Source: Methanofollis liminatans DSM 4140
GTDB lineage: Archaea; Halobacteriota; Methanomicrobia; Methanomicrobiales; Methanofollaceae
DNA length: 64,000 nt
Reading direction: 5' to 3'
Assembly (NCBI RefSeq): GCF_000275865.1
Contig: NZ_CM001555.1
Location: 1,948,967 to 2,012,966, forward strand
Positions 740 through 55,513 of this stretch are shown piece by piece. The stretch's first letter is position 1, and every line of letters begins with the position of its first letter. The position numbers were made by a program, and so were the translations under genes. The notes below the pieces were generated by a model, which was not told the DNA's origin, made no database searches, and saw only the letters and a list, made by a program, of their open reading frames with translations.

Positions 740-1402
740 ATGCTCCCTCCCACATATCCCGAGGCGGCCATCGCCCTGCAGGAGGAGATCAGCCGCCTCG
801 TCGTCACCGAGGGCGATCCCTATCCCTCGCTCGTCGCCGGCCTCGACGCCGCCTATGCACGGGACGGACGGACCGTCTTCGGTGCTGCAGCTCTCCTCGT
901 ATTTCCGTCGCTCGAATTCGTCGAGGGGGCATGGGCAGCGTGCGAGATCGCCTTCCCGTACATCCCCGGCCTCTTCGCCTTCAGGGAGGGGCCGGCACTC
1001 ATCGAGGCGCTCGGTCGCCTCGCGCACACTCCAGACCTCCTGATCGTCGACGGCCACGGCATCGCTCACCCGCGGCGGTGCGGGATCGCCTCTCACATCG
1101 GTGTTGTGACCGGTATCCCCTCGATCGGGGTGGCAAAACACCTCCTCTGCGGGGCAGCAGCGGAGCCCGGCAGTGAGCGCGGATCAGCGGCGCCGGTGAC
1201 CGAGGGCGGGGCGACGATCGGCTGCGCCGTGCGGACAGTGACCGGGGTCCACCCGGTCTATGTCTCCGTTGGCCACCGCGTCGGGCTTGTTGAAGCGGTA
1301 CGTCTGGTGCTCGCACTCTCCGACGGCTACCGCCTGCCTGCGCCGATCCGGGCCGCCCACGCCCTCGCCAACCGGGTGCGGGAGAGAGGAGACGGCCTCT
1401 GA
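740..1402 (+). CDS. nfi: Endonuclease V (deoxyinosine 3' endonuclease)
   Basis: Cleaves DNA one base 3' of hypoxanthine (deaminated adenine) and starts its repair. The 220-residue length is typical. The metal-binding triad known from the family is visible: Asp36 in AGLDAAY, Glu83 in FREGP and Asp104 in VDGHG, with the wedge motif PYIPG just before the glutamate and HPRRCG after the last aspartate. The gene is divergent from msrA with about 56 bases between the starts, and its stop is immediately followed by the copA promoter. An EndoQ-like enzyme acting on similar lesions lies 15 kb away (16512-17630). Confidence 0.93.
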
Positions 1403-1406
1403 GGAG

Positions 1407-1417
1407 CTTTTATATCG
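1407..1417 (+). promoter_or_regulatory. TATA box of copA
   Basis: CTTTTATATCG lies just after the endonuclease V stop and about 29 bases before the copA ATG at 1440. Archaeal transcription usually starts about 25 bases after the TATA centre, so the copA mRNA is predicted to be almost leaderless. Confidence 0.55.
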
Positions 1418-1439
1418 AGAGACCCACAGATGGGCAGGT

Positions 1440-4043
1440 ATGAGCGGCGAAGACGGGGAAACGGACGAAACGACGCGGAAAGAAACCCTGAAAGTTTCGG
1501 GGATGCACTGCGCCACCTGCGCCGTCACCCTTGAGAAGGCCCTGAAAAATGTTGAAGGGGTGAAGAGCGCCTCGGTGAACCTGGGAGCCGAGCAGGCGGC
1601 GGTGGAGTACGACCCCGCCCGCGTCTCGGCGGCCAGCCTCCAGCAGGCCGTCACCGGGGCCGGATACGGGGTGATCACCGGAACGGCCGTCCTGAAAGTA
1701 GGGGGCATGATGTGCGCCACCTGCGTCCGGACGGTCGAGGCGGCCCTGGAGAGCCTTCCAGGCGTCTTCACGGCCACCGTGAACCTGGGATCGGAGCGCG
1801 CCTACGTCACCTACAACCCTGACGCCGTCACCGTGGCAGAGATGGCGAAGGCGATCGAGGAGGCGGGTTACCAGTATATCGGCACCGAAGAGGAGGAAAC
1901 CGGGGAGATTGAGCGGAAGGCGCGTGAGGCCGACCTGAACGACAAACGCTGGCGGATCGCCATCGGCGCCGTCGCCTCCGCGGTCCTGATGGGGATCATG
2001 TGGACCGCACCGCCGCTCCCCTTCGATATGGCCTACCTCATGCTCGTCATCGCCGCCCCGGCCTTCGCCTACCTTTCGTGGCCGATCTTTCTCGCCGCCT
2101 GGCGGGCCCTGCGGAACCGGACCCTGAACATGGACGTGATGTACTCGATGGGCATCGGGGTCGCCTTCGCCGCATCGGTCCTGGGCACCTTCGGCATCGT
2201 CCTCACCCAAGAATACCTCTTCTACGAGACAGCGGTGATGCTTGCCACCTTCCTCACCCTCGGCCGCTACCTCGAGGCAAGGGCAAAGGGGCGAACGGGC
2301 GAGGCGATCGCCGCCCTGATCCGCCTCAGGCCAAAGACCGCCACCGTCCTCGTCGACGGGAAGGAGGAAAAACGGCCGATCGACGAGGTGCTGCCCGGCG
2401 ACACCGTGCTCGTCAGGTCAGGCGAGCGCGTCCCGGTCGACGGCACAGTCAACCGCGGCGAGAGCTACGTGGACGAGTCGATGATCACCGGCGAACCCCT
2501 CCCGGTCAGGAAAGAGGCAGGCGAGGGAGTCGTGGGCGGAACCATCAACGGCGACGGCGTGCTCGAGGTTGCGGCCACACGGGTCGGCCGGGACACGGTG
2601 CTCGCCCAGATCATCAGGCTCGTCGAGGAGGCACAGGGAACAAAACCCCCGGTCCAGCGGATCGCAGACACGGCGGTGGCATACTTCATCCCGGCCGTGC
2701 TCTCCATCGCCGCGGCCGCCTTTCTCTTCTGGTACCTCGTTGCCGGGGCCACCCTGCTCTTCGCCCTCTCCACCCTGATCTCGGTCCTCGTCGTCGCCTG
2801 CCCGTGTGCCCTCGGCCTCGCCACCCCGACGGCGATCACTGTCGGTGTCGGCAGGGGCGCAGAACTCGGCATCCTGATCAAGAGCGGCGAGGCGCTGGAA
2901 GCAGCTGAACGCCTTGATACAGTCGCCTTCGACAAGACCGGCACCCTGACGGAGGGGAAGCCCCGGGTGACCGACATCGTCGGGCTCGCCCTCACGGCAG
3001 AGGAGAGCCTCGCCCTCGCCGCCGGTGCCGAACAGAACTCGAACCACCCGGTAGCGCGGGCTATCGTCGCCAGGGCACAGGAGCAGGGTATTTCGATCCC
3101 CGCAACCGACACCTTCGAGACAATCCGGGGTAAGGGGGTGCTCGCCACCGTCGGCGGCCGCCTGATCGCTCTCGGCAACCGGGCGATGCTCGCGGACGTG
3201 AACATCGTCCTCGATGAAGGGGCCGAGGCTGCGGTCGTCCACCTCGAAGAGGAGGGCAAGACCGTTGCCATCCTCGTCGCCGACAGTGTGGTCGCCGGCA
3301 TCATCGCCGTCGCCGACACCCTCAAGCCCACGGCGATGGCGGCAGTCGCAGGGCTGAAGGAGATGGGGCTCTCTGTTGCGATGATCACCGGAGACAATCC
3401 CGGGACCGCCAGGGCGATCGCCGGGATGATCGGGATCGACCGCGTCTTTGCCGGGGTGCTCCCCGACGTCAAAGCCGCCGAGATCAGGGCGTTTCAGGAG
3501 GAAGGCCGGAGGGTCGCCTTCGTCGGGGATGGGATCAACGACGCCCCGGCCCTTGCGCAGGCCGACCTCGGGATCGCCATCGGCGGCGGGACCGACGTCG
3601 CTATCGAGAGCGGCGGCGTGGTCCTGGTCAGGGACGACCTCACCGACGTCCCGGCAGCGATCCAGCTTGCGCAGAAAGTGATTGGACGGGTCAAAATCAA
3701 CCTCTTCTGGGCGTTCGCCTACAATGCTGCCCTCATACCGGTGGCGGCGGGGGTGCTCTACCCGACCTTCGGGATCACCTTCAGGCCCGAACTCGCCGGC
3801 CTCGCCATGGCGGCAAGTTCGGTCACCGTTGTCACTCTCTCCCTCCTGCTCAAAGGATATATACCAAAAGCAAAAAGAGAGAGGACGGAGGTATCGAAGA
3901 TGGAGACTGACCCGGTCTGCAAGATGAAGGTCGACCCGAAGACGGCGAAGTTCACAACAGATTACAAAGGAAAGACCTACTACTTCTGTGCACCCGGCTG
4001 CAAGAAGGAGTTCGAGAAGGACCCGGAAAAATACCTTGGATAA
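1440..4043 (+). CDS. copA: Copper-exporting P1B-type ATPase CopA with C-terminal YHS domain
   Basis: Membrane ATPase that exports Cu(I). From the ATG at 1440 it has 867 residues. Domains in order: two N-terminal heavy-metal-associated domains with GMHCATC (Cys24/Cys27) and MMCATC (about 92-95), eight predicted helices with the CPC metal site (ACPCALG, about 453), the actuator motif TGEP, the phosphorylation motif DKTGT (about 498), the HP motif SNHP and the hinge GDGINDAP (about 697). After the last helix and a basic linker, an in-frame YHS domain (about 822-867) begins METDPVCKM and contains [12 protein letters not shown]. The frame is open 180 bases further upstream inside the endonuclease V gene, but the TATA box and the domain start favour 1440. 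The YHS domain is a known metal-binding module whose appended position is notable. Confidence 0.95.
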
Positions 4044-28394: not shown

Positions 28395-30452
28395 ATGAAT
28401 CATGGCGGAAAAGAACCAGGGAGGAAAGGGGGTCACGCCTCTCACGAGGGACATTCGGAACCGAAGACCTCCGGTGGAAACGGTGACCGTTACACTGGAA
28501 AACAGAGCGGACACCTACACATGCTCGAGGATTTCCGGAAACGCTTTATCATCTCGATCCTCCTCACGGTGCCGATCCTGATCCTTTCCCCCTCTATCCA
28601 GTCGTTTTTCGGATTTTCCTTTGTTTTTGCCGGATCAGAACTGGCACTCCTGGCCCTTGCAACCACAATATACGCGTACGGTGGCTACCCGTTCCTGAAA
28701 GGGATCGTGCAGGAGTTCCGCTCCCGGCTCCCGGGCATGATGACCCTCATTGCGGTGGCCATCACCGTCGCCTATGTGTTCAGTGCAGCAATTGTCCTCG
28801 GCATGGTTTCCGGCAAACCGTTCTTCTGGGAACTTGCCACCCTGATAGACATCATGCTGCTCGGTCACTGGATCGAGATGCGATCGGTCCTCGGTGCCTC
28901 CCGCGCTCTTGAGGAGCTGGTGAAGATCATGCCCTCGGAAGCCCATCTGATGAAAGAAAGCGGTGAGACTGAGGATGTGAGTATCGAAACCCTCAAACTC
29001 GGAGACCTTGTGCTGATAAGACCCGGTGAGAAAATTCCAGTCGACGGAGTGGTCATCGAAGGGACATCAAGCCTGAATGAGTCGATGCTCACCGGCGAGT
29101 CAAAGCCAGTCTCCAGAAAACCCGGCGATACCGTCACCGGCGGATCCATCAACGGCGAGGGATCTCTTGTTGCCGAGGTGAAGAAGACCGGGAAAGACAC
29201 CTATCTGAACCAGGTGATCGATCTCGTCCAGAAGGCCCAAGAGAGCAAGTCCCGTGCACAGGACCTCGCGAACCGGGCAGCACTCCTTCTTACCGTCATC
29301 GCCCTCTCTGTCGGGGCGATCACCTTCATCGCCTGGTACCTCCTCGGCCCGAGCCTCGACTTTGCGGTGGAACGTGCAGCGACGGTCATGGTCATCGCAT
29401 GCCCCCATGCCCTCGGCCTTGCCGTCCCCCTCGTCGTTGCGGTCTCAACCGCACTGGCAGCACAGTCAGGGCTTCTCATCCGAAACCGCCAGGCGTTCGA
29501 GGGGGCAAGAAACCTGCAGGCAATAGTCTTTGACAAGACCGGCACTCTCACCCGTGGCGTGTTTGGTGTGACGGATATCCTCGCGTTCGGGGATGTGAGT
29601 GAGGAGGAGATCCTCAGGAGGGCTGCATCGCTCGAAGAGAACTCTGAACATCCCATTGCAAGAGGAATTGTGCAGAGTGCAGGCGAGCGAGATATCAGCC
29701 TCAGCCAGCCTCAAGAGTTCCGGGCGATATCAGGAAAAGGTGTTGAAGGCCGTGTCGACGGTATTCTCACACGGGTCGTGAGTCCGGGCTACCTGAAAGA
29801 AGAGGACATCACTGTCGTGGACTCCAGGGTGGAAAAGACTCTTTCCCAGGGAAAAACGGTCGTTTTTGTTCTTCAGGACCGGACGGTCCTTGGTGCACTC
29901 GCCCTGGCCGATATCGTCAGGGAAGAGTCACGGGACGCCATCTCCCACCTGAAGGAGATGGGTGTCAGATGCATGATGCTCACCGGTGACAACCAATTCG
30001 TGGCGAAATGGGTTGCTGAAGAGATCGGCCTTGACGACTATTTTGCCGAAGTCCTGCCGCATGAGAAAGCTGAAAAGATCAAGGAAGTCCAGAAACAGTA
30101 CCGGGTCGCCATGGTCGGAGACGGGATCAACGACGCCCCGGCCCTTGTCCAGGCTGACGTGGGGATTGCCATAGGGGCAGGAACGGACGTGGCGGTGGAG
30201 AGTGCCGATATCGTGCTCGTCCGGAGTGACCCGAGGGACGTGGTGGACATAATCGTACTTTCGAAGAAGACTTACTCCAAGATGGTCCAGAACCTGCTCT
30301 GGGCCACCGGTTACAACACCTTTGCCATCCCGCTGGCAGCAGGTGTCGCCATCGGGTACGGGATCATCCTCACGCCCACAATAGGGGCCGCCCTGATGAG
30401 CGCCAGTACGGTTATCGTCGCTATTAATGCCAGGATGCTTCGTATGAACTGA
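28395..30452 (+). CDS. copB: CopB-like heavy-metal P1B-type ATPase (CPH motif)
   Basis: Second metal-transporting ATPase of the window. The 685 residues begin with a His-rich cytoplasmic tail (NHGG...HASHEGHSEP...SGHLHM, within about 1-45) and no HMA domain. The membrane metal site is CPH (IACPHALGLAVP, about 334-345), typical of the CopB/P1B-3 group proposed to move Cu(II) or Cu(I). The TGES, DKTGT (about 379), SEHP and GDGINDAP (about 575) motifs are all present. The gene is alone behind a long palindrome-bearing leader, unlike copA. Confidence 0.93.
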   Translation: MNHGGKEPGRKGGHASHEGHSEPKTSGGNGDRYTGKQSGHLHMLEDFRKRFIISILLTVPILILSPSIQSFFGFSFVFAGSELALLALATTIYAYGGYPFLKGIVQEFRSRLPGMMTLIAVAITVAYVFSAAIVLGMVSGKPFFWELATLIDIMLLGHWIEMRSVLGASRALEELVKIMPSEAHLMKESGETEDVSIETLKLGDLVLIRPGEKIPVDGVVIEGTSSLNESMLTGESKPVSRKPGDTVTGGSINGEGSLVAEVKKTGKDTYLNQVIDLVQKAQESKSRAQDLANRAALLLTVIALSVGAITFIAWYLLGPSLDFAVERAATVMVIACPHALGLAVPLVVAVSTALAAQSGLLIRNRQAFEGARNLQAIVFDKTGTLTRGVFGVTDILAFGDVSEEEILRRAASLEENSEHPIARGIVQSAGERDISLSQPQEFRAISGKGVEGRVDGILTRVVSPGYLKEEDITVVDSRVEKTLSQGKTVVFVLQDRTVLGALALADIVREESRDAISHLKEMGVRCMMLTGDNQFVAKWVAEEIGLDDYFAEVLPHEKAEKIKEVQKQYRVAMVGDGINDAPALVQADVGIAIGAGTDVAVESADIVLVRSDPRDVVDIIVLSKKTYSKMVQNLLWATGYNTFAIPLAAGVAIGYGIILTPTIGAALMSASTVIVAINARMLRMN

Positions 30453-36550: not shown

Positions 36551-36757
36551 TCAGATCCTGAGCTGTTTGAACTTCTCCACATTCTTCGTGAGGGCCTCAA
36601 GCTCGCTGTCGGTGATCCGCATCCTGCTCCCGAGGACATCTACTTCGGAGAGGAGCTGCTGGATCCGCACATACATGATGTACATGATGAAGAGCTGAAG
36701 GACGATCACGATTCCCAGAATAATAAGGAGGATCCCTCCCATATCAAACGCATCCAT
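36551..36757 (-). CDS. Small membrane protein with coiled coil, unknown
   Basis: 68 residues: an N-terminal transmembrane helix (GGILLIILGIVIVLQLFIMYIMYV, about 7-30) followed by a heptad-like helix (VRIQQLLSEVDVLGSRMRITDSELEALTKNVEKFKQL). Its start directly follows the stop of the MinD-like gene, so the two are translationally coupled. The architecture (anchor plus short coiled coil) suits a membrane recruiter or effector of that ATPase. No family is recognised. Confidence 0.7.
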   Translation of the reverse strand: MDAFDMGGILLIILGIVIVLQLFIMYIMYVRIQQLLSEVDVLGSRMRITDSELEALTKNVEKFKQLRI

Positions 36758-37543
36758 TTATCTTTTCCCCCTGAAAATAGCCTTTGCAAGTCTGTCTATG
36801 AAACCTTCGCGCGCCGAAGCGGTGTCGTCGTGGTATTCGCACCCGGAAATTTCTGCCGCGATCCTCTTTATCGCCCGTGAAGAGCCAGAAGTCGGGTACT
36901 TTATCACAACAGGCGTCTTGTACGCTGCCGATTCACGGACATGGTTGTCTTCAGGAACCGACCCAAGAGACTTGACGCCAAGCGATTTTTCTATTTTTTT
37001 CTCAACGAAGTCGAGATTGTCCTTGCCCGCCCGGTTGATGATCGCATACTGGACATGGCCGCCGACCAGTTCGGTAAGGATCTTGGTCTTGAGGGCGTCG
37101 ACGATCGAGGAAAGCTCGGGGTTCACCACCAGGATTACCTCATCTGCGATTGCAAGGGGCACCACGCCGTCACGGCTGATCCCCGCCGGGGCGTCGATGA
37201 GGAGGTAATCGCAGCGATCGACAAGATCGTGCATCACCTCGCGCAACCGGTCGGGGTTTGCGTCCTGGAACCCCTGCAGTGATATGCCGCTCGGCACCAC
37301 TTTCAGTCCGGCCGGCCCGTCATAGATCGCCTCATCGACCTTTGCCTTGCCGGCGAGCACCTCATGCAGGGTCACCGGGACGTTTTCAAGCCCGAGCAGA
37401 ATCCCGATGTTTGCCATGCCGACATCAGCGTCGAGGATGTACGTTTCTTTTCCAAGTTGTGCAAGGGCGGTCCCAAGATTGACCGTGACGGTCGTCTTGC
37501 CCGTCCCCCCCTTGCCTGATGCAATGGTATATGCTCTTATCAT
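36758..37543 (-). CDS. MinD/ParA-like ATPase
   Basis: 261 residues. The deviant Walker A motif KGGTGKTT (about 11-18), the switch I Asp in DADVGMANIG (about 39-48), Walker B LLIDAPAG and NRAGKDN all match MinD. The last residues (REGFIDRLAKAIFRGKR) form a basic amphipathic helix like a MinD membrane-targeting sequence. It sits between a membrane-anchored LC7 protein (42-base gap) and a membrane coiled-coil protein (no gap). A role in spatial organisation of a membrane signalling complex is inferred. No minC or minE is nearby. Confidence 0.88.
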   Translation of the reverse strand: MIRAYTIASGKGGTGKTTVTVNLGTALAQLGKETYILDADVGMANIGILLGLENVPVTLHEVLAGKAKVDEAIYDGPAGLKVVPSGISLQGFQDANPDRLREVMHDLVDRCDYLLIDAPAGISRDGVVPLAIADEVILVVNPELSSIVDALKTKILTELVGGHVQYAIINRAGKDNLDFVEKKIEKSLGVKSLGSVPEDNHVRESAAYKTPVVIKYPTSGSSRAIKRIAAEISGCEYHDDTASAREGFIDRLAKAIFRGKR

Positions 37544-37585
37544 CTCATCCCTCGTCCAGATCTGTGGATTGTACGCAGCATATCC

Positions 37586-38185
37586 TCACAACCACCGCTT
37601 CAGGATTGAAACGGCATCGTTTTCCATGCTCTCCACCCATTTTTCAGGAATGTTGCGATCGGTGCGGATGATGCCGACAAGCGGCGATCCTTTGTGCCTG
37701 ACACCGAAGAGCATCACCTGCGGGTCGTCGGGGAGCGTGCCCGCGGTGAATGCGTGGCTGTACTTTGCAGCATCGGCGGCGGCATCCTCCATCGAGGAGG
37801 CAACGACGAGTCCGTCATCGGTTGCGATCGTAAAGGCGTCCAGATAGTACTTTTCGCAGAGTGCCTTCATGCTCCCCATGATATCGTTCTGGCCCACGAC
37901 CACTTCGACATCCTGCGGCGGTTTATCCCACTCCACTTCCCGCGACTTCTGGATATGCTTGAAGAGTTTGAAGAGGTCCACCGGTTCCCTGGGGGTTCCG
38001 CCAATCATATCACGCAACTGGGTTATCTGATGCCGTTCTGAGAACTCTTTGAGGATCTCGTCCATCTGGTCTCTGATCCGGACCAGATACAGCACGCATC
38101 CGGCAACCCCCACACCTATCAGGGCAAGGAGGACGACCATAATCTCCCCCAGTGCCACAAGCATTGCTCCATCTTCCATCGTCAT
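37586..38185 (-). CDS. Membrane-anchored roadblock/LC7-like protein
   Basis: 199 residues with one N-terminal helix (about 8-35), a charged linker and a C-terminal roadblock/LC7-type domain (about 95-199: IMGSMKALCEKYYLDAFTIATDDGLVVASS...). LC7 proteins are dimeric regulators of small GTPases or signalling ATPases. It overlaps the upstream tandem-domain gene by 4 bases and precedes the MinD-like gene. The LC7 assignment rests on the LDAFTIATDDGLVVASS pattern and the domain length. Confidence 0.7.
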   Translation of the reverse strand: MTMEDGAMLVALGEIMVVLLALIGVGVAGCVLYLVRIRDQMDEILKEFSERHQITQLRDMIGGTPREPVDLFKLFKHIQKSREVEWDKPPQDVEVVVGQNDIMGSMKALCEKYYLDAFTIATDDGLVVASSMEDAAADAAKYSHAFTAGTLPDDPQVMLFGVRHKGSPLVGIIRTDRNIPEKWVESMENDAVSILKRWL

Positions 38186-39183
38186 TCACACTCCTTTTCC
38201 TCTTTCCTATCGATCAGGTGGCCAAGATCGAGGCGGCCGAGGATCGAGACATAGCTGGATTTCAGATCAGCCGCCATCGCCGCAGGGTCGATCGAATCGA
38301 GGCCCTCGATGTAGAGAAGGTCCAGATCTGACATTCGAGACGAGACCGGCTCGTCCTTTCTCCGGGTCTCCCGGCCCTGCCCTTCTGCAGCTGGACGAGG
38401 TGCAGGACCGAAGGAAGGAGGCACAGCGCCACCGTCAGCAACGGTTCTCCGGGACCCGGCCCCGGAAACGGACTCAGCAGGGGCGGCGCCATAGCCCTCG
38501 TTGAACTCAAGGGCAAGGGAGATCTGCCGGTCTGACAAACCATAGAGACTCACCTCAGAGATGCGTTCAATAGTCTTTGCCAGCTTCAGGGCTGCAGACC
38601 CCGGTTCGCCACCGCAGTCGGCAAGAATGCAGACGCCACCGGAGAACACCAGGGTGAACGTACCGGGGCCCCCGGAGAAGAGACCATAGCCGGAAAAGCC
38701 GCGCTTCCCCAGATCATCGATCACCTCATTGACCGGGAGGTCGCGCCTGATCTCGCAGAAAGTGCCGCGAGGAACCCTGAGACGGCCTGCCACTCCGGGG
38801 CTCTTCTTCGCCGGCGGCATGTCTGCCCGGGCATTTCGGCCCCCATCCGCTCTTCCAGCCTGCCGGGGAGGAGGCACCACAGAGACTGCCGCTTTTTTGT
38901 TGAATTCTGATGCAAGTCTGATCTGCTGGGGGGTGAGAAGATGCATCCCGGCCTCGACCGTCTCACCGCCCCGCACCTGGATTTCCTGCCAGGCCGCATG
39001 ACCCTGCAGGCCCTGGTACTCGGCGAGAATGCAAGTCCCTTCAGAGAAAACGAGGGAACCGGGAACTCCCCCGCAACTCACCGTCACATACCCGGAAAAC
39101 GATGTCTCACGGATCTCGGAGAGTATGGCGGATAAGAGTATATCCCGTCTGATAGAAGAGAAGGTACCTCTCGGAATATCCAT
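38182..39183 (-). CDS. Tandem PATAN/DUF4388-like domain protein
   Basis: 333 residues with two homologous domains (about 4-94 and 137-228). Both begin PRGTF.(S/E)IRRD and share SFSGY or GFSGY, LVFS.G.CILA and (L)(T/S).(R/Q)QI.LA.EFN. The SFSGYV...LVFSEGTCILA pattern resembles PATAN/DUF4388 domains, which occur in signalling proteins of bacteria and archaea. A proline-rich linker separates the repeats, and a third C-terminal region (about 280-333) contains SDLDLLYIEGLDSIDPAAMAADLKSSYVSIL. It is the first gene of a four-gene minus-strand operon. The function is unknown, probably signal input. Confidence 0.65.
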   Translation of the reverse strand: MDIPRGTFSSIRRDILLSAILSEIRETSFSGYVTVSCGGVPGSLVFSEGTCILAEYQGLQGHAAWQEIQVRGGETVEAGMHLLTPQQIRLASEFNKKAAVSVVPPPRQAGRADGGRNARADMPPAKKSPGVAGRLRVPRGTFCEIRRDLPVNEVIDDLGKRGFSGYGLFSGGPGTFTLVFSGGVCILADCGGEPGSAALKLAKTIERISEVSLYGLSDRQISLALEFNEGYGAAPAESVSGAGSRRTVADGGAVPPSFGPAPRPAAEGQGRETRRKDEPVSSRMSDLDLLYIEGLDSIDPAAMAADLKSSYVSILGRLDLGHLIDRKEEKECE

Positions 39184-39536
39184 TAATATGGATTAGGTAT
39201 TGTACATATTATAACTCTATGTTAATCATCAAAAATCGAATTGTATATATACTATTAATTATGACTATCGCCGTGCCCATTAAAGACTACGTATTTTGCA
39301 ATCATGACATAATAGAACCTATCGATCAAAAGCACAATTTAAAGAGAGAACACGGCACAGAAAGAGACAAAAGAGGCGAAGAAGGAACAAAAAGTGGCGG
39401 AGAGAAAATATTCAGAAAATTTTGCCAGAAAATAGGCCCTGGCGAGTATAACCAACCCGTATTGGAAAAGGCAAAGATACTCAAAGATAAAGGAAACCAA
39501 AAAATGTTATATGAACAGGGATAAGGTAAGGTGGGC
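39184..39536. other. AT-rich divergent promoter region of the signalling cluster
   Basis: 353 bases separating the two divergent units. On the minus strand TTATAATA (about 39207-39214) is well placed as TATA box for the tandem-domain gene. An AT-rich half is followed by a strongly purine-rich tract (about 39343-39420). A 101-codon forward frame (39219-39524) is present, but its composition does not look coding. AAGGTGGGC before 39537 is the ribosome binding site of the free LC7 gene. Confidence 0.5.
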
Positions 39537-39911
39537 ATGTCAGAACATCTGGGACTCAAAGAGAGGATCAACCAGTTCATCAAGGAGATCACAGGCGTCG
39601 AAGGAGTAAAGGCCTGCGTGATCACCTCGCGTGACGGGATCCTGATGGGCAGGGCATTCACCGGCGGCGTATCTGTTCCTTCTTTTGCAGCAATGAGCGC
39701 AACGATGCTCGCGTCAGCCGAAGCGGCGGCCAGCATATCTCATATCCAGCCACCCGAGCGGATCACGGTCATGAGCCCCGACGCCACCATCATGGTGATC
39801 AGCGCGGGCGAACGCACCCTCCTCGCCGTCGTTCTTGAAGATAAAGCAGACCTCGAGGCGACATACACGGCTCTGACGAAGATTGCGGCAGATATTGCGG
39901 AGGTACTCTGA
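39537..39911 (+). CDS. Roadblock/LC7 domain protein (MglB-like)
   Basis: 124 residues making one whole roadblock/LC7 domain: KERINQFIKEITGVEGVKACVITSRDGILMGRAF ... IMVISAGERTLLAVVLEDKADLEATYTALTKIAADIAEVL. The fold is shared with MglB, the GAP of polarity GTPases, but no MglA-like GTPase is in the window. ATG 39537 is preferred over GTG 39531 because of GGTGGGC. The response regulator gene follows with a 1-base overlap. Confidence 0.88.
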   Translation: MSEHLGLKERINQFIKEITGVEGVKACVITSRDGILMGRAFTGGVSVPSFAAMSATMLASAEAAASISHIQPPERITVMSPDATIMVISAGERTLLAVVLEDKADLEATYTALTKIAADIAEVL

Positions 39912-40546
39912 TGTACACCGTGCTCGTCGTGGATGACAGCCCCTTCATCGTGGACGTCTTCGTCACCATGCTGGAGCGGGGCGGTTATCAGGCGATCGCG
40001 GCATATAGTGGAGAGGAAGGACTCGAAATTCTCAAGACCGTCGCACCTGATCTGATCCTCCTCGATATCATGATGGAGCCGATGGACGGCTGGGAAACCC
40101 TGGAAAACATCAAGATCAACCCGAAGACCCGCGAGATCCCGGTGCTCATGCTGACGGCGAAACAGCTGACCCCGGACGAAGCAGAGGGGTATGGCTCCTA
40201 TATCGAGGACTACATCCTCAAACCTATCACACACCGCGAGCTCTACGAGGCGATCGAACGAGTGCTGAAACGGCGAGAGATCATCAGGAGCGACGTCGAG
40301 CGTGCAAAAGAGGCAGGACTCGACAGATCTCTGGTCGACGAGTACGCCCGCCTTGCAAAGGGAGTCGACGTGAACAATCGCCTGCTCCGCATCCTGGAGA
40401 CGACCTATAACATCAATGATTCGCGGGCGAGCGAGAAGATCTCCCTCGCCATCAGGAATATGGAGAACAGCATAAGGTTCCAGCAGGAGCGCCTCGCCCA
40501 GATCAAAGCCGAGATCGAGAGCACCCCTGCGAAAAAATCAGAATAA
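39911..40546 (+). CDS. Response regulator (REC) with helical C-terminal region
   Basis: 211 residues. The REC domain (about 1-125) has the acidic pocket VVDDS (Asp9, Asp10), the phospho-acceptor Asp in LLDIMM (about 54), Thr in MLTAK and Lys in LKPI. The remaining 85 residues are helical (SLVDEYARLAKGVDVNNRLLRIL and IRNMENSIRFQQERLAQIKAEIE), with no DNA-binding domain recognised. It is coupled to the LC7 gene. No histidine kinase is adjacent. Confidence 0.92.
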   Translation: MYTVLVVDDSPFIVDVFVTMLERGGYQAIAAYSGEEGLEILKTVAPDLILLDIMMEPMDGWETLENIKINPKTREIPVLMLTAKQLTPDEAEGYGSYIEDYILKPITHRELYEAIERVLKRREIIRSDVERAKEAGLDRSLVDEYARLAKGVDVNNRLLRILETTYNINDSRASEKISLAIRNMENSIRFQQERLAQIKAEIESTPAKKSE

Positions 40547-53554: not shown

Positions 53555-55513
53555 TTAGATCCCGAGCCCGTTGCGCTTTTTCCTGATATGCGCCTCGATC
53601 AGATCGGCCGCCCGCACCGGATCGGGCTCGACCGCAAACGAGGCATGGACGAGGCCGTTGAGCCCTCTGGTGAGGAGATCGGCGACGTTCCCGCTCCCCG
53701 CGATCTTCGGCATCACCCCGAGGACGGTAAAGACGCCCGAGGCCACGAAATACGAACCGATGGAAACCGCTTTCTGGGAGTACCACTCAGGAGCGGCGCC
53801 GGCGATCGGGAGCTGGTGGATGCCCACGCCGAGTTCGCGCCCCAGCCCTGCGGCAAGCACCAGGATCCTGGAGCAGTCCACGCACGAGCCCATGTGGAGC
53901 ACCGGCGGGATCCCGAACGTCCGGCAGACATTCGCAAGGCCGGGGGCGGCGAGGTCGGCCGCTTCAGGACGGAGGAGACCGGCCTTCCCGGAGGCGATGG
54001 CAGCGCACCCGGTCTCGACCACCAGGATCCCACGCCGGATCAGCTCCTTCGTGAGGGTGACGTGCCCCTCGTCCTGGCGCACCTTCGGGTTGTTGCAGCC
54101 GACGACCCCGGCGGCGCCCAGGATGGAGCCCTCCGCGATCGCGTCGATGACCGGTTTGAACCCGCCGAAGAGATGGCCGATCGCCTCCACCGAGAACCCG
54201 GTCATCGCCTCCACCGGTTCGCCCGGGATGAGCACCTTCCCGGGGTCGCGGTTCGGGAAGTTCGCGATCGCCAGGCTGACGATCTCCCGCGCCGTCTCGA
54301 GCGCCGATTCCGGGTAAAAGGGATAGTAGAGCGAGCCAGGCACCTTCGACTTCGGGCTTGTGGAGACGATGTGGGTGTGGAAACAGCTCGCCGTCCTGGG
54401 CAGGGACGGGAATATGCACTGGTAATCGACGATCATCACCTCCAGGGCGCCCGTCGCGATGATCAGCTCCTGGTTGAGATGGTTGCCGGCCTGCGGGATC
54501 CCTTTGCGCATCAGGAGTTCGTTTCCCGTGCAGCAGAGCCCGACCAGGTTTATCCCTGCGGACCCGGCCTCTTCGGCGAGTTCAAGCATCGCGGGCTCGG
54601 CCGCCGCCCGCACGATCATCTCGGAGAGCACAGGGTTGTGGCCGTGGAGGGCGATGTTCACCCGGTCGTCCTTCAGCACGGCGAGGTTTACCCGTGACAT
54701 ATTCACCTGCGGCGTCCCGAAGAGGATGTCCGAGGTTTCGGTCGCCATCAGGGATCCGCCCCACCCGTCGCCCAGGGAGGCACGCAGCCCCTGCAGGAGG
54801 ACGTTGGCGTAGTCCGCCCCCACGCCCATATGGACGCGGTGCATCGCCTCCACGATCTCGCGGTCCACGCTCCTGGGCGTGATCCCGGCCGCCTCCCAGA
54901 GGTCCAGGGTCTGCGGCGGCGCCCGCTGCACAAACTGGATCGCATTTTTCACCGTCCCGAACTCTTCGAGCATGGCAAGGGCGACGTCGCCGGCAACGGC
55001 GCTGTCGTCCCGATCGCCGGTCTCGATGCGGTACTCTTCAGCAATCCGCCGGAGTTTTTCGGGATCGGTGATTCCATACCCCACGGCCTCGCCCCGGGCG
55101 GCCTTATACAGGGTCTCGACGATCTCGCGGCCGTGATCTGAGTGCGCCGCCGCGCCCGTGGCGATCATGTCCAGCAGGTTCCTGGCGACGACCAGGTCGG
55201 CGTCGGCCCCGCAGACCCCGCGGAAACGCTGGCGTTCCGGGATGATCCGGCACGGCCCCATGGCGCACCGGTTACACGAGAGCCCTGAGGCGCAGTAGCG
55301 GCACGGCGGCTGCTGCTGTTCGTACCTATCCCATGCTGTCTCGATCCCCTCTTCGAGGGCGAGCCGGATCAGCGGTTTCGCCGTTTCGTCGATCGTCCGC
55401 TCCTCCACCTTCGCCTCGATCAGGGCCGGGTTCATCAGGGATAGTTTCGCCCGTTCCAGAATCGTGCAGGCGATCCGCTCCCTGACATACGCTCCTCTCT
55501 TCTCCTCCATCAC
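53555..55513 (-). CDS. cooS: Carbon monoxide dehydrogenase, monofunctional Ni catalytic subunit
   Basis: Oxidises CO to CO2 (reversible) in the cytoplasm. 652 residues. Cluster B/D cysteines are in CRYCASGLSCNRCAMGPC (about 71-88). C-cluster ligands are visible in LHGHNPVL (His), GLCCTGNE, YQCIFPS, VVGCNNPK, ETGCAAIASGKAG and HMGSCVDCSR, and the catalytic Lys is in YSQKAVSIG. It is of the CooS type, not the acetyl-CoA synthase CdhA. No CooF ferredoxin or Ech hydrogenase is adjacent. The promoter region has a TATA box and a palindrome. Confidence 0.96.
   Translation of the reverse strand: MMEEKRGAYVRERIACTILERAKLSLMNPALIEAKVEERTIDETAKPLIRLALEEGIETAWDRYEQQQPPCRYCASGLSCNRCAMGPCRIIPERQRFRGVCGADADLVVARNLLDMIATGAAAHSDHGREIVETLYKAARGEAVGYGITDPEKLRRIAEEYRIETGDRDDSAVAGDVALAMLEEFGTVKNAIQFVQRAPPQTLDLWEAAGITPRSVDREIVEAMHRVHMGVGADYANVLLQGLRASLGDGWGGSLMATETSDILFGTPQVNMSRVNLAVLKDDRVNIALHGHNPVLSEMIVRAAAEPAMLELAEEAGSAGINLVGLCCTGNELLMRKGIPQAGNHLNQELIIATGALEVMIVDYQCIFPSLPRTASCFHTHIVSTSPKSKVPGSLYYPFYPESALETAREIVSLAIANFPNRDPGKVLIPGEPVEAMTGFSVEAIGHLFGGFKPVIDAIAEGSILGAAGVVGCNNPKVRQDEGHVTLTKELIRRGILVVETGCAAIASGKAGLLRPEAADLAAPGLANVCRTFGIPPVLHMGSCVDCSRILVLAAGLGRELGVGIHQLPIAGAAPEWYSQKAVSIGSYFVASGVFTVLGVMPKIAGSGNVADLLTRGLNGLVHASFAVEPDPVRAADLIEAHIRKKRNGLGI

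Follow-up and report, generated by a model that had tools for sequence, protein, structure and literature searches.

Within a 64,000-nucleotide stretch of the Methanofollis liminatans DSM 4140 genome (hereafter the window; C1:1948967-2012966 on NZ_CM001555.1, the single contig of a 2.475-Mb genome), three adjacent genes that encode a tandem PATAN-like protein (T), a membrane-anchored protein with a predicted LC7 fold (A) and an archaeal MinD ATPase (D) make up one real unit. This conclusion follows from their co-occurrence over 120 genomes of the order and from their almost constant order in 51 loci, which include sites beside type IV pilus genes and beside a [NiFe] hydrogenase. Our preferred reading, held with middling confidence, is that these genes, together with that of a small membrane protein (C), form a MinD-based positioning cassette by which a type IV filament is placed or gated, with LC7 proteins as scaffolds and the PATAN-like protein as adaptor.

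The genes lie in two divergent units, the minus-strand unit in the order T-A-D-C and the plus-strand unit in the order L-R:

36551..36757, minus strand: C, single-pass membrane coiled-coil protein, 68 aa (hydrophobic segment 9-27)
36758..37543, minus strand: D, archaeal MinD ATPase with a predicted amphipathic C-terminus, 261 aa (TIGR01969 over cut-off; helix moment)
37586..38185, minus strand: A, membrane-anchored LC7 protein by prediction, 199 aa (open reading frame; hydrophobic segment 17-35; LC7 topology in the model)
38182..39183, minus strand: T, tandem PATAN-like protein, 333 aa (open reading frame; predicted two-copy small domain and C-terminal helices)
39184..39530, no strand: inter-unit gap, 347 bases (ends conserved among same-genus relatives, middle not)
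39531..39911, plus strand: L, free Roadblock/LC7 protein, 126 aa (PF03259 over cut-off; start probably ATG 39537)
39911..40546, plus strand: R, REC-MetOD2 response regulator, 211 aa (PF00072 and PF18548 over cut-off)

All six open reading frames described in a sequence-only reading of this region are present, on the strands and with the junctions given there: T and A overlap by 4 bases, 42 bases separate A from D, D and C touch, and L and R overlap by 1 base. Between the window and the same-genus locus L068, the ratio of non-synonymous to synonymous substitution rates (dN/dS) is 0.42 for T, 0.15 for A, 0.06 for D, 0.055 for C, 0.185 for L and 0.08 for R. Because of these values, all six genes are judged to evolve under purifying selection, which is weakest on T; and the same values, with the conservation described below, rule out that the six are misread open reading frames.

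Co-occurrence and gene order

Fifty-six regions were selected from matches to A or T and, with the window and a second locus of the same genome, gave 58 scored loci. Family codes f1-f31 label the genomes of relatives, f1 being the window's own family. A is present in 51 of the scored loci. T lies directly upstream of it on the same strand in all 51 (in loci that were chosen from A or T matches), D directly downstream in 50 (the exception is L078), and C follows D directly in 33 of the 50 T-A-D loci.

RNA polymerase genes, MetOD2 and the window's relatives all point to Methanomicrobiales, the order meant here. Counted singly among the 120 genomes of the order, A occurs in 86, T in 87 and MinD (E up to 1e-60) in 88; all three occur together in 86 and all three are missing from 32, and no genome has T or A without D. 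The two remaining genomes carry D alone (G031) or D with a 49-residue remnant of T (G084). Those lacking the whole set are all 24 genomes of f6 together with G047, G068, G076, G086, G090, G098, G112 and G116, some of these assemblies being incomplete. The sequence-only reading had named a lack of co-occurrence in any other genome as evidence that would count against its proposal; what we find instead is joint presence in 86 of 120. Its six-family module survives in part: the MinD, LC7 and tandem-domain proteins form a conserved unit, but L and R are dissociable from it, as set out below.

The MinD ATPase and its putative membrane partners

D scores 315.5 bits against the archaeal MinD family TIGR01969 (curated cut-off 201.75), which bears out its earlier description as a MinD-like ATPase. 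The nearest solved chain is 1hyq, MinD-1 (E 2.8e-74), and the next ones are further chains of archaeal MinD and of FleN/FlhG; Pfam reports NUBPL/ParA and NifH families as well. The highest hydrophobic moment in D belongs to the 11-mer FIDRLAKAIFR (248-258), close to the C-terminus; the tail of D2, its paralogue in the same genome, is not the point of highest moment in that protein.

A and C each contain one strong hydrophobic segment. No Robl_LC7 (PF03259) match to A was obtained at E up to 1, nor any Pfam family over its cut-off. The AlphaFold model of A, however, has a long N-terminal helix that contains the membrane segment, followed by LC7 topology, and VIA-align superposed it on the Roadblock/LC7 crystal chain 3kye_A with Z 10.2 over 98 residues at a root-mean-square deviation of 3.0. 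The remaining VIA-align matches at Z of at least 8 are LC7, MglB or Ragulator-type chains, with CodY GAF and profilin next at about 7.3; the best Foldseek E-value is 7e-3. Comparison of the A profile with LC7 gave a weak link (probability 37.8, E 3.4e-4), two comparisons with unrelated families giving 0.1 and 0.15. A is thus predicted to share the LC7 fold, and the earlier assignment of two LC7 proteins holds for L by Pfam cut-off and for A by this predicted fold.

The tandem-domain protein and its relatives

The predicted model of T contains one small domain twice, with a predicted local distance difference test score of about 92 in the first copy and about 77 in the second, along with disordered linkers and C-terminal helices. 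No Pfam family matches the window's T at E up to 1, and so neither PF14332 (DUF4388, cut-off 25) nor PF09987 (DUF2226, cut-off 22) does. Across the phylum, DUF4388/PATAN was matched in 2 of 148 genomes, at 20.5 and 19.9 bits (cut-off 25), and both places are also matches of the T profile. Because DUF4388 matches only relatives of T, and below its cut-off, we call T PATAN-like rather than PATAN. What had been described as a tandem PATAN-like protein therefore keeps its predicted two copies of one domain, but its likeness to PATAN is weak. Searches of solved structures with T returned at best E 0.037 and probability 0.05 in Foldseek, Z 5.6 in VIA-align and E 0.18 by profile; the missing match does not show that the fold is new.

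Two groups of proteins resemble T by profile. The first is L2, an LC7 protein of the second module described below, whose N-terminal half is matched by the T profile (probability 94.6, E 6.8e-8) and whose LC7 part exceeds the Pfam cut-off; for these reasons L2 is best described, from its sequence, as a PATAN-like/LC7 fusion. A much longer version of this combination is seen in L118 (8411-10297), where L2 is 628 aa long with LC7 near the C-terminus (545-600). The second is a haloarchaeal protein encoded directly after MinD (probability 90.4, E 1.4e-6, with a profile of 4 rows only); a T-like gene follows MinD in four of the seven haloarchaeal loci viewed. Judging by its position, the gene in Haloferax marinum (L143) would be HVO_0596. 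In L256, a locus of f9 from a genome that we take to be Archaeoglobus-like, the protein in T's place is a DUF2226 member (43.9 bits, cut-off 22), and in Hydrothermarchaeota (L138) the start of the protein upstream of MinD is DUF2226 (36 bits, cut-off 22).

The LC7-response regulator pair

L scores 35.8 bits against Robl_LC7 (PF03259, cut-off 23). Its start is probably ATG 39537 instead of GTG 39531, since the GTG is missing in G021, one of four relatives whose alignment reaches that far. R contains Response_reg (PF00072, 86.4 bits) and MetOD2 (PF18548, 93.8 bits), both over cut-off, and retains the REC residues D8, D9, D52, T82 and K104, as read from the sequence. The gap between the units had been taken for one shared regulatory region. 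It is indeed flanked by divergent units; among same-genus relatives, however, conserved blocks lie next to the T start and the L start and the middle is variable. Because conservation falls mainly at both ends, the gap suggests two promoters and not one shared site. A TATA-like stretch lies about 20-30 bases ahead of each start codon.

MetOD2 is present in 98 of the 120 genomes of the order. Of the 86 genomes in which T, A and D are found, 83 have it too; where the three are missing, it occurs in five of the eight non-f6 genomes and eight of the 24 f6 genomes. Because it is kept in those five and absent from three that have the unit, L-R is a looser, dissociable partner of T-A-D. If this looseness is taken further, T-A-D(-C) and L-R would be separate neighbours, and L-R would be a two-component output of its own that happens to lie at the same rpoB site. 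MetOD2 in 13 genomes without T, A and D (five non-f6, eight f6), the reverse situation in 3 of 120, the conservation of the gap mainly at its ends, and the fact that, among the matches listed, L-R remains at the rpoB site where T-A-D is elsewhere all fit such independence. The listed loci scored for this last point were L131-L149; L150 was viewed only and L151-L210 were left out. Against it stand the 83 of 86 genomes in which MetOD2 accompanies T, A and D, the 14 of 51 loci in which L-R lies opposite T-A-D (R alone does so in three more), and the presence of LC7 proteins beside the cassette at its other sites as well. On this evidence we regard complete independence as unlikely.

We also considered whether R in f4 lies within a chemotaxis/archaellum cluster and rejected this: the ATPase 16-19 kb off adjoins KaiC-like genes and an A-type ATP synthase (by eye). 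In L223, L224, L225 and L134, all at the rpoB site, the REC-MetOD2-type gene is tandemly doubled next to LC7.

Genomic sites and the second module

Among the 51 loci, T-A-D lies at an rpoB/ARMT1 site in 17, at a hydrogenase site in 13, at a pilus site in 17 and beside L1-L2 only in one; for the remaining three, the flank retrieved contains no such neighbour. At the 17 rpoB/ARMT1 loci, L and R are both present, opposite T-A-D, in 14, and R alone in three. In the pilus loci, all in f5, T-A-D and L1-L2-pilB-pilF1-pilF2 form divergent units. The hydrogenase loci, which come from f4 and some of f2, run in a single direction as T-A-D-(C)-Fd-V4R-hydG-hydA-L1-L2, where Fd is ferredoxin and V4R-like is a label given here to a protein with a weak ATC_hydrolase match only.

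Both kinds of neighbour are combined in a second module of the M. liminatans genome itself (L120, about C1:1784-1795 kb), which reads Fd-V4R-hydG-hydA-L1-L2-T2-D2-X208-pilB-pilF1-pilF2 in a single direction. D2 is 72% identical to D; pilB is T2SSE/PilB3-like, and pilF1 and pilF2 are T2SSF. HydA and HydG fall below the NCBIfam equivalog cut-offs for VhuA and VhuG (390.8 of 800 and 244.3 of 450 bits) and are by sequence a Vhu/Mvh-like [NiFe] hydrogenase.

Several loci nearby in kind deserve mention. L284 (G019, C24) carries hydrogenase-LC7-L2-X208-pilB-pilF1-pilF2 without T2 and D2, so that hydrogenase, LC7 and pilus genes stand together without MinD. A PilB-type ATPase with a 647-aa T2SSF-type protein, at L211 8953-14113 (C1:2068.9-2074.1 kb of the same genome as the window), has as neighbours A-type ATP synthase genes and, by eye, a pair of KaiC-like genes, a layout repeated in L212 and L215. 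A Hadesarchaea contig (L139, 1-6692) carries a series of short pilin-like proteins, as judged by eye, next to two MinD genes that lie on opposite strands. Both the second module and the MinD of a Haloarcula locus have in their vicinity a gene that by eye resembles cobyric acid synthase (L120 17460-18941 and L145 8462-9940, respectively), which may be coincidence; the context of minD2 is presumably cobalamin genes.

Across the phylum, the A profile matches 66 of 294 genomes, and the 25 of these outside the order are from f14 (4), f18 (2) and f9 (19). Two f14 genomes (L265 and L266, one matched to Methanocella paludicola) have Fd-V4R-hydG-hydA-L1-L2-T-x-D-C with A elsewhere, and in two f18 genomes (L251, L252) A-D-C faces pilB. 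The f9 locus L256 reads V4R-hydG-Fd-hydA-...-A-...-D-C-L1-DUF2226; other f9 loci retain parts only, such as A near D-C.

MinD copies do not sort by site, either in an 89-row tree (profile matches >150 bits, 235-400 aa, long N-termini trimmed) or in a 65-row tree from which 22 named loci were dropped, the site groups having been tested after the first tree had been viewed. A single clade was rejected both for rpoB-site copies (p-AU 8.3e-6, approximately unbiased test) and for hydrogenase/pilus-site copies (p-AU 8.4e-10), from which it follows that MinD copies changed site; parsimony on the 65-row tree requires 4 such changes. We read this as relocation of T-A-D, as a cassette, among sites at each of which LC7 partners are available.

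The linked hydrogenase

The HydA tree unites the 20 LC7-linked rows that come from Methanomicrobiales and Methanocella in one clade (95/94) and places L256 elsewhere on a long branch. At the eleven other HydA loci of the phylum (L267-L277), neither LC7 nor MinD was found by profile; most of them have a nearby ferredoxin-like match of 630-690 aa, taken for a candidate HdrA. Memar_1007-1008 are described as the only F420-non-reducing hydrogenase among three Methanomicrobiales (PMC2686161); M. paludicola is listed with two Mvh sets, of which MCP_2492-2493 is one (PMC3146512). From their position rather than their locus tags, we infer that these are the LC7-linked copies.

A metabolic role for the cassette is one way to account for this linkage: MinD, the LC7 proteins and T would hold the Vhu/Mvh-like hydrogenase and ferredoxin at the membrane as a tethered enzyme complex, with pilus neighbours incidental. 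Hydrogenase, ferredoxin, V4R-like protein, LC7 proteins and MinD do share one direction in the f1-f4 loci and the two Methanocella loci; both nickel-ligand motifs are kept in all 21 LC7-linked HydA; and the same two papers file the hydrogenase as a metabolic F420-non-reducing enzyme. Yet in f5 the module is intact where only weak, Frh-level HydA matches were found in the phylum search (1e-27 to 1e-33), no hydrogenase lies near the window copy, and other loci are linked to pilus genes. Enzyme tethering is, to our minds, decidedly unlikely.

Because a MinD-family ATPase adjoins a [NiFe] hydrogenase, D might alternatively serve in nickel or Fe-S maturation, in a CooC/NBP35-like use of the MinD fold, to which its NUBPL/ParA and NifH matches in Pfam would also correspond. 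But the best family of D is archaeal MinD, over cut-off, with no better NubpL-like or CooC-like match, and the predicted C-terminal amphipathic helix, the co-occurrence with A, T and C, and the f5 modules that lack this hydrogenase all point away from maturation, which we consider highly improbable.

Other features of the window

The Pfam neighbours of the module are a TPR protein, an ARMT1-like protein and PsiE, accompanied by two tRNAs; this was a search of the surroundings, not a genome-wide one for MglA, MinC/E, chemotaxis or archaellum genes. Between 36000 and 41400, the sole RNA feature at gathering score is tRNA-Lys. Farther off, the window contains two P-type (E1-E2) ATPases (1260-4043 and 28395-30452), the first with additional HMA domains and a C-terminal YHS domain, and a 652-aa protein of the prismane/CO dehydrogenase family (53555-55513).

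Discussion

MinD/ParA ATPases place cargo on surfaces through ATP-dependent dimerisation and an activating partner. If the cassette works by this principle, the interactions, the cargo and the inputs would be as follows. The ATP form of D would bind the membrane through its C-terminal amphipathic helix, with C and the membrane-tethered LC7 protein A as its membrane partners, and T would act through its tandem PATAN-like domains as the adaptor to cargo. The most likely cargo would be a type IV filament machine, a PilB-type ATPase with a TadC-like platform, which the cassette would place or gate. Scaffolding or modulation of the cassette would fall to the free LC7 protein L and, in the second module, to its two LC7 proteins, of which L2 is the fusion with a PATAN-like part. 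A phospho-signal would enter through R at the rpoB site, and a hydrogen or redox signal may enter through the second module's Vhu/Mvh-like hydrogenase.

The linkage to pilus genes described above and three precedents make filament placement or gating the best reading. In cyanobacteria, the pilus motor PilB1 is a target of PATAN regulators (PMC7690835); in archaea, an association of type IV pili with the families MinD/FleN (arCOG00589) and Roadblock/LC7 (arCOG02603) is on record (Makarova et al. 2016, PMC4858521); and MinD2 and MinD4 of Haloferax affect the placement of motility machines (PMC11588486).

Several observations weigh against this interpretation. T is without a solved-fold match, and DUF4388 matches its relatives only below cut-off. 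Deletion of HVO_0596, the likely Haloferax homologue of T, left no phenotype, and no direct interaction was observed in that study (PMC11588486). Neither pilus nor hydrogenase genes lie near the window copy, and 17 of the 51 T-A-D loci are at the rpoB site. In the genomes examined from genus g6 of f6 and from f4, and in one f2 and one f5 genome (L278-L283), pilus genes stand without T-A-D nearby; none of T, A and D is present in f6 g6 or in G047. Finally, among the matches listed, f4, some f2 genomes and G064 have at the rpoB site a second MinD that is followed by C but accompanied by neither T nor A.

The cargo could also be different. Deletions of Haloferax MinD2 and MinD4 misplace chemotaxis arrays and archaellum motors (PMC11588486), and T resembles the gene after haloarchaeal MinD, so that the cassette might place archaella, chemotaxis arrays or cell-shape proteins and not type IV pili. 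Its recurrent neighbours, however, are type IV pilus and hydrogenase genes, a point that tests this alternative weakly since no genome-wide search for archaellum or chemotaxis genes was made; we rate such a cargo as very unlikely.

A more speculative extension of filament placement joins both kinds of neighbour in a polarity switch responsive to H2 or redox state, in which the [NiFe] hydrogenase, ferredoxin and V4R-like protein would feed an LC7/PATAN-like relay that sets the state of MinD and thereby the placement or activity of the type IV filament; the window copy would be the branch with a REC-MetOD2 phospho-input. We offer this tentatively and think it rather unlikely.

Each known system to which the cassette can be compared shares only part of it; what follows holds for the sections of the cited papers that could be consulted. 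Archaeal type IV pilus loci have a MinD-family ATPase and LC7 with pilus ATPase and TadC-like genes, but no T, A, C, hydrogenase or REC-MetOD2 partner is described there (PMC4858521; D and L were compared by description, not by arCOG membership). Haloferax volcanii MinD2-HVO_0596 likewise pairs MinD with a small downstream protein, T-related by profile in four haloarchaeal loci, but no A, C, LC7, REC or hydrogenase is reported with it (PMC11588486). R is a member of the REC-MetOD2 regulators by Pfam cut-offs (Galperin et al. 2018, PMC5847659), and MinD has 0 occurrences in the main text of that paper. Cyanobacterial PATAN-REC regulators such as PixE (PMC7690835) also tie PATAN-like domains and a REC protein to a type IV pilus motor, whereas T has no REC domain, reaches DUF4388 only through relatives and below cut-off, and has MinD and LC7 companions. 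In Myxococcus, LC7 proteins of the MglB type control, with MglA, the placement of PilB-driven pili (PMC11580455); here a MinD ATPase stands in the switch position instead of a small GTPase, none of which was seen by eye in the fetched loci, although no systematic search was made.

Archaeal MinD, LC7, REC-MetOD2 and the proximity of MinD and LC7 to archaeal pili are thus known already, and the description of the module as candidate new fits the combination, not every part: MinD and LC7 families had already been tied to archaeal type IV pili (PMC4858521). The T-A-D-C unit, the hydrogenase link, the PATAN-like/LC7 fusion and the match between T and the haloarchaeal gene were not found in the open-access literature, with subscription journals mostly, and supplements wholly, outside that search.

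Archaeal MinD has been studied in cells only in Haloferax, where its partners are unclear (PMC11588486). A candidate partner set (T, A, C and the LC7 proteins) is now defined. It comes with a record of co-occurrence, with a likely cargo and, for A, with an LC7 fold by prediction; since Haloferax has a T-like gene, part of this proposal could be tested in a tractable strain. A hydrogenase filed as a metabolic F420-non-reducing enzyme (PMC2686161, PMC3146512) is placed inside a conserved, regulatory-looking locus, which bears on H2 sensing by hydrogenotrophic methanogens and on heterodisulfide reduction. If the polarity switch proved true, methanogens would attach or move according to H2.

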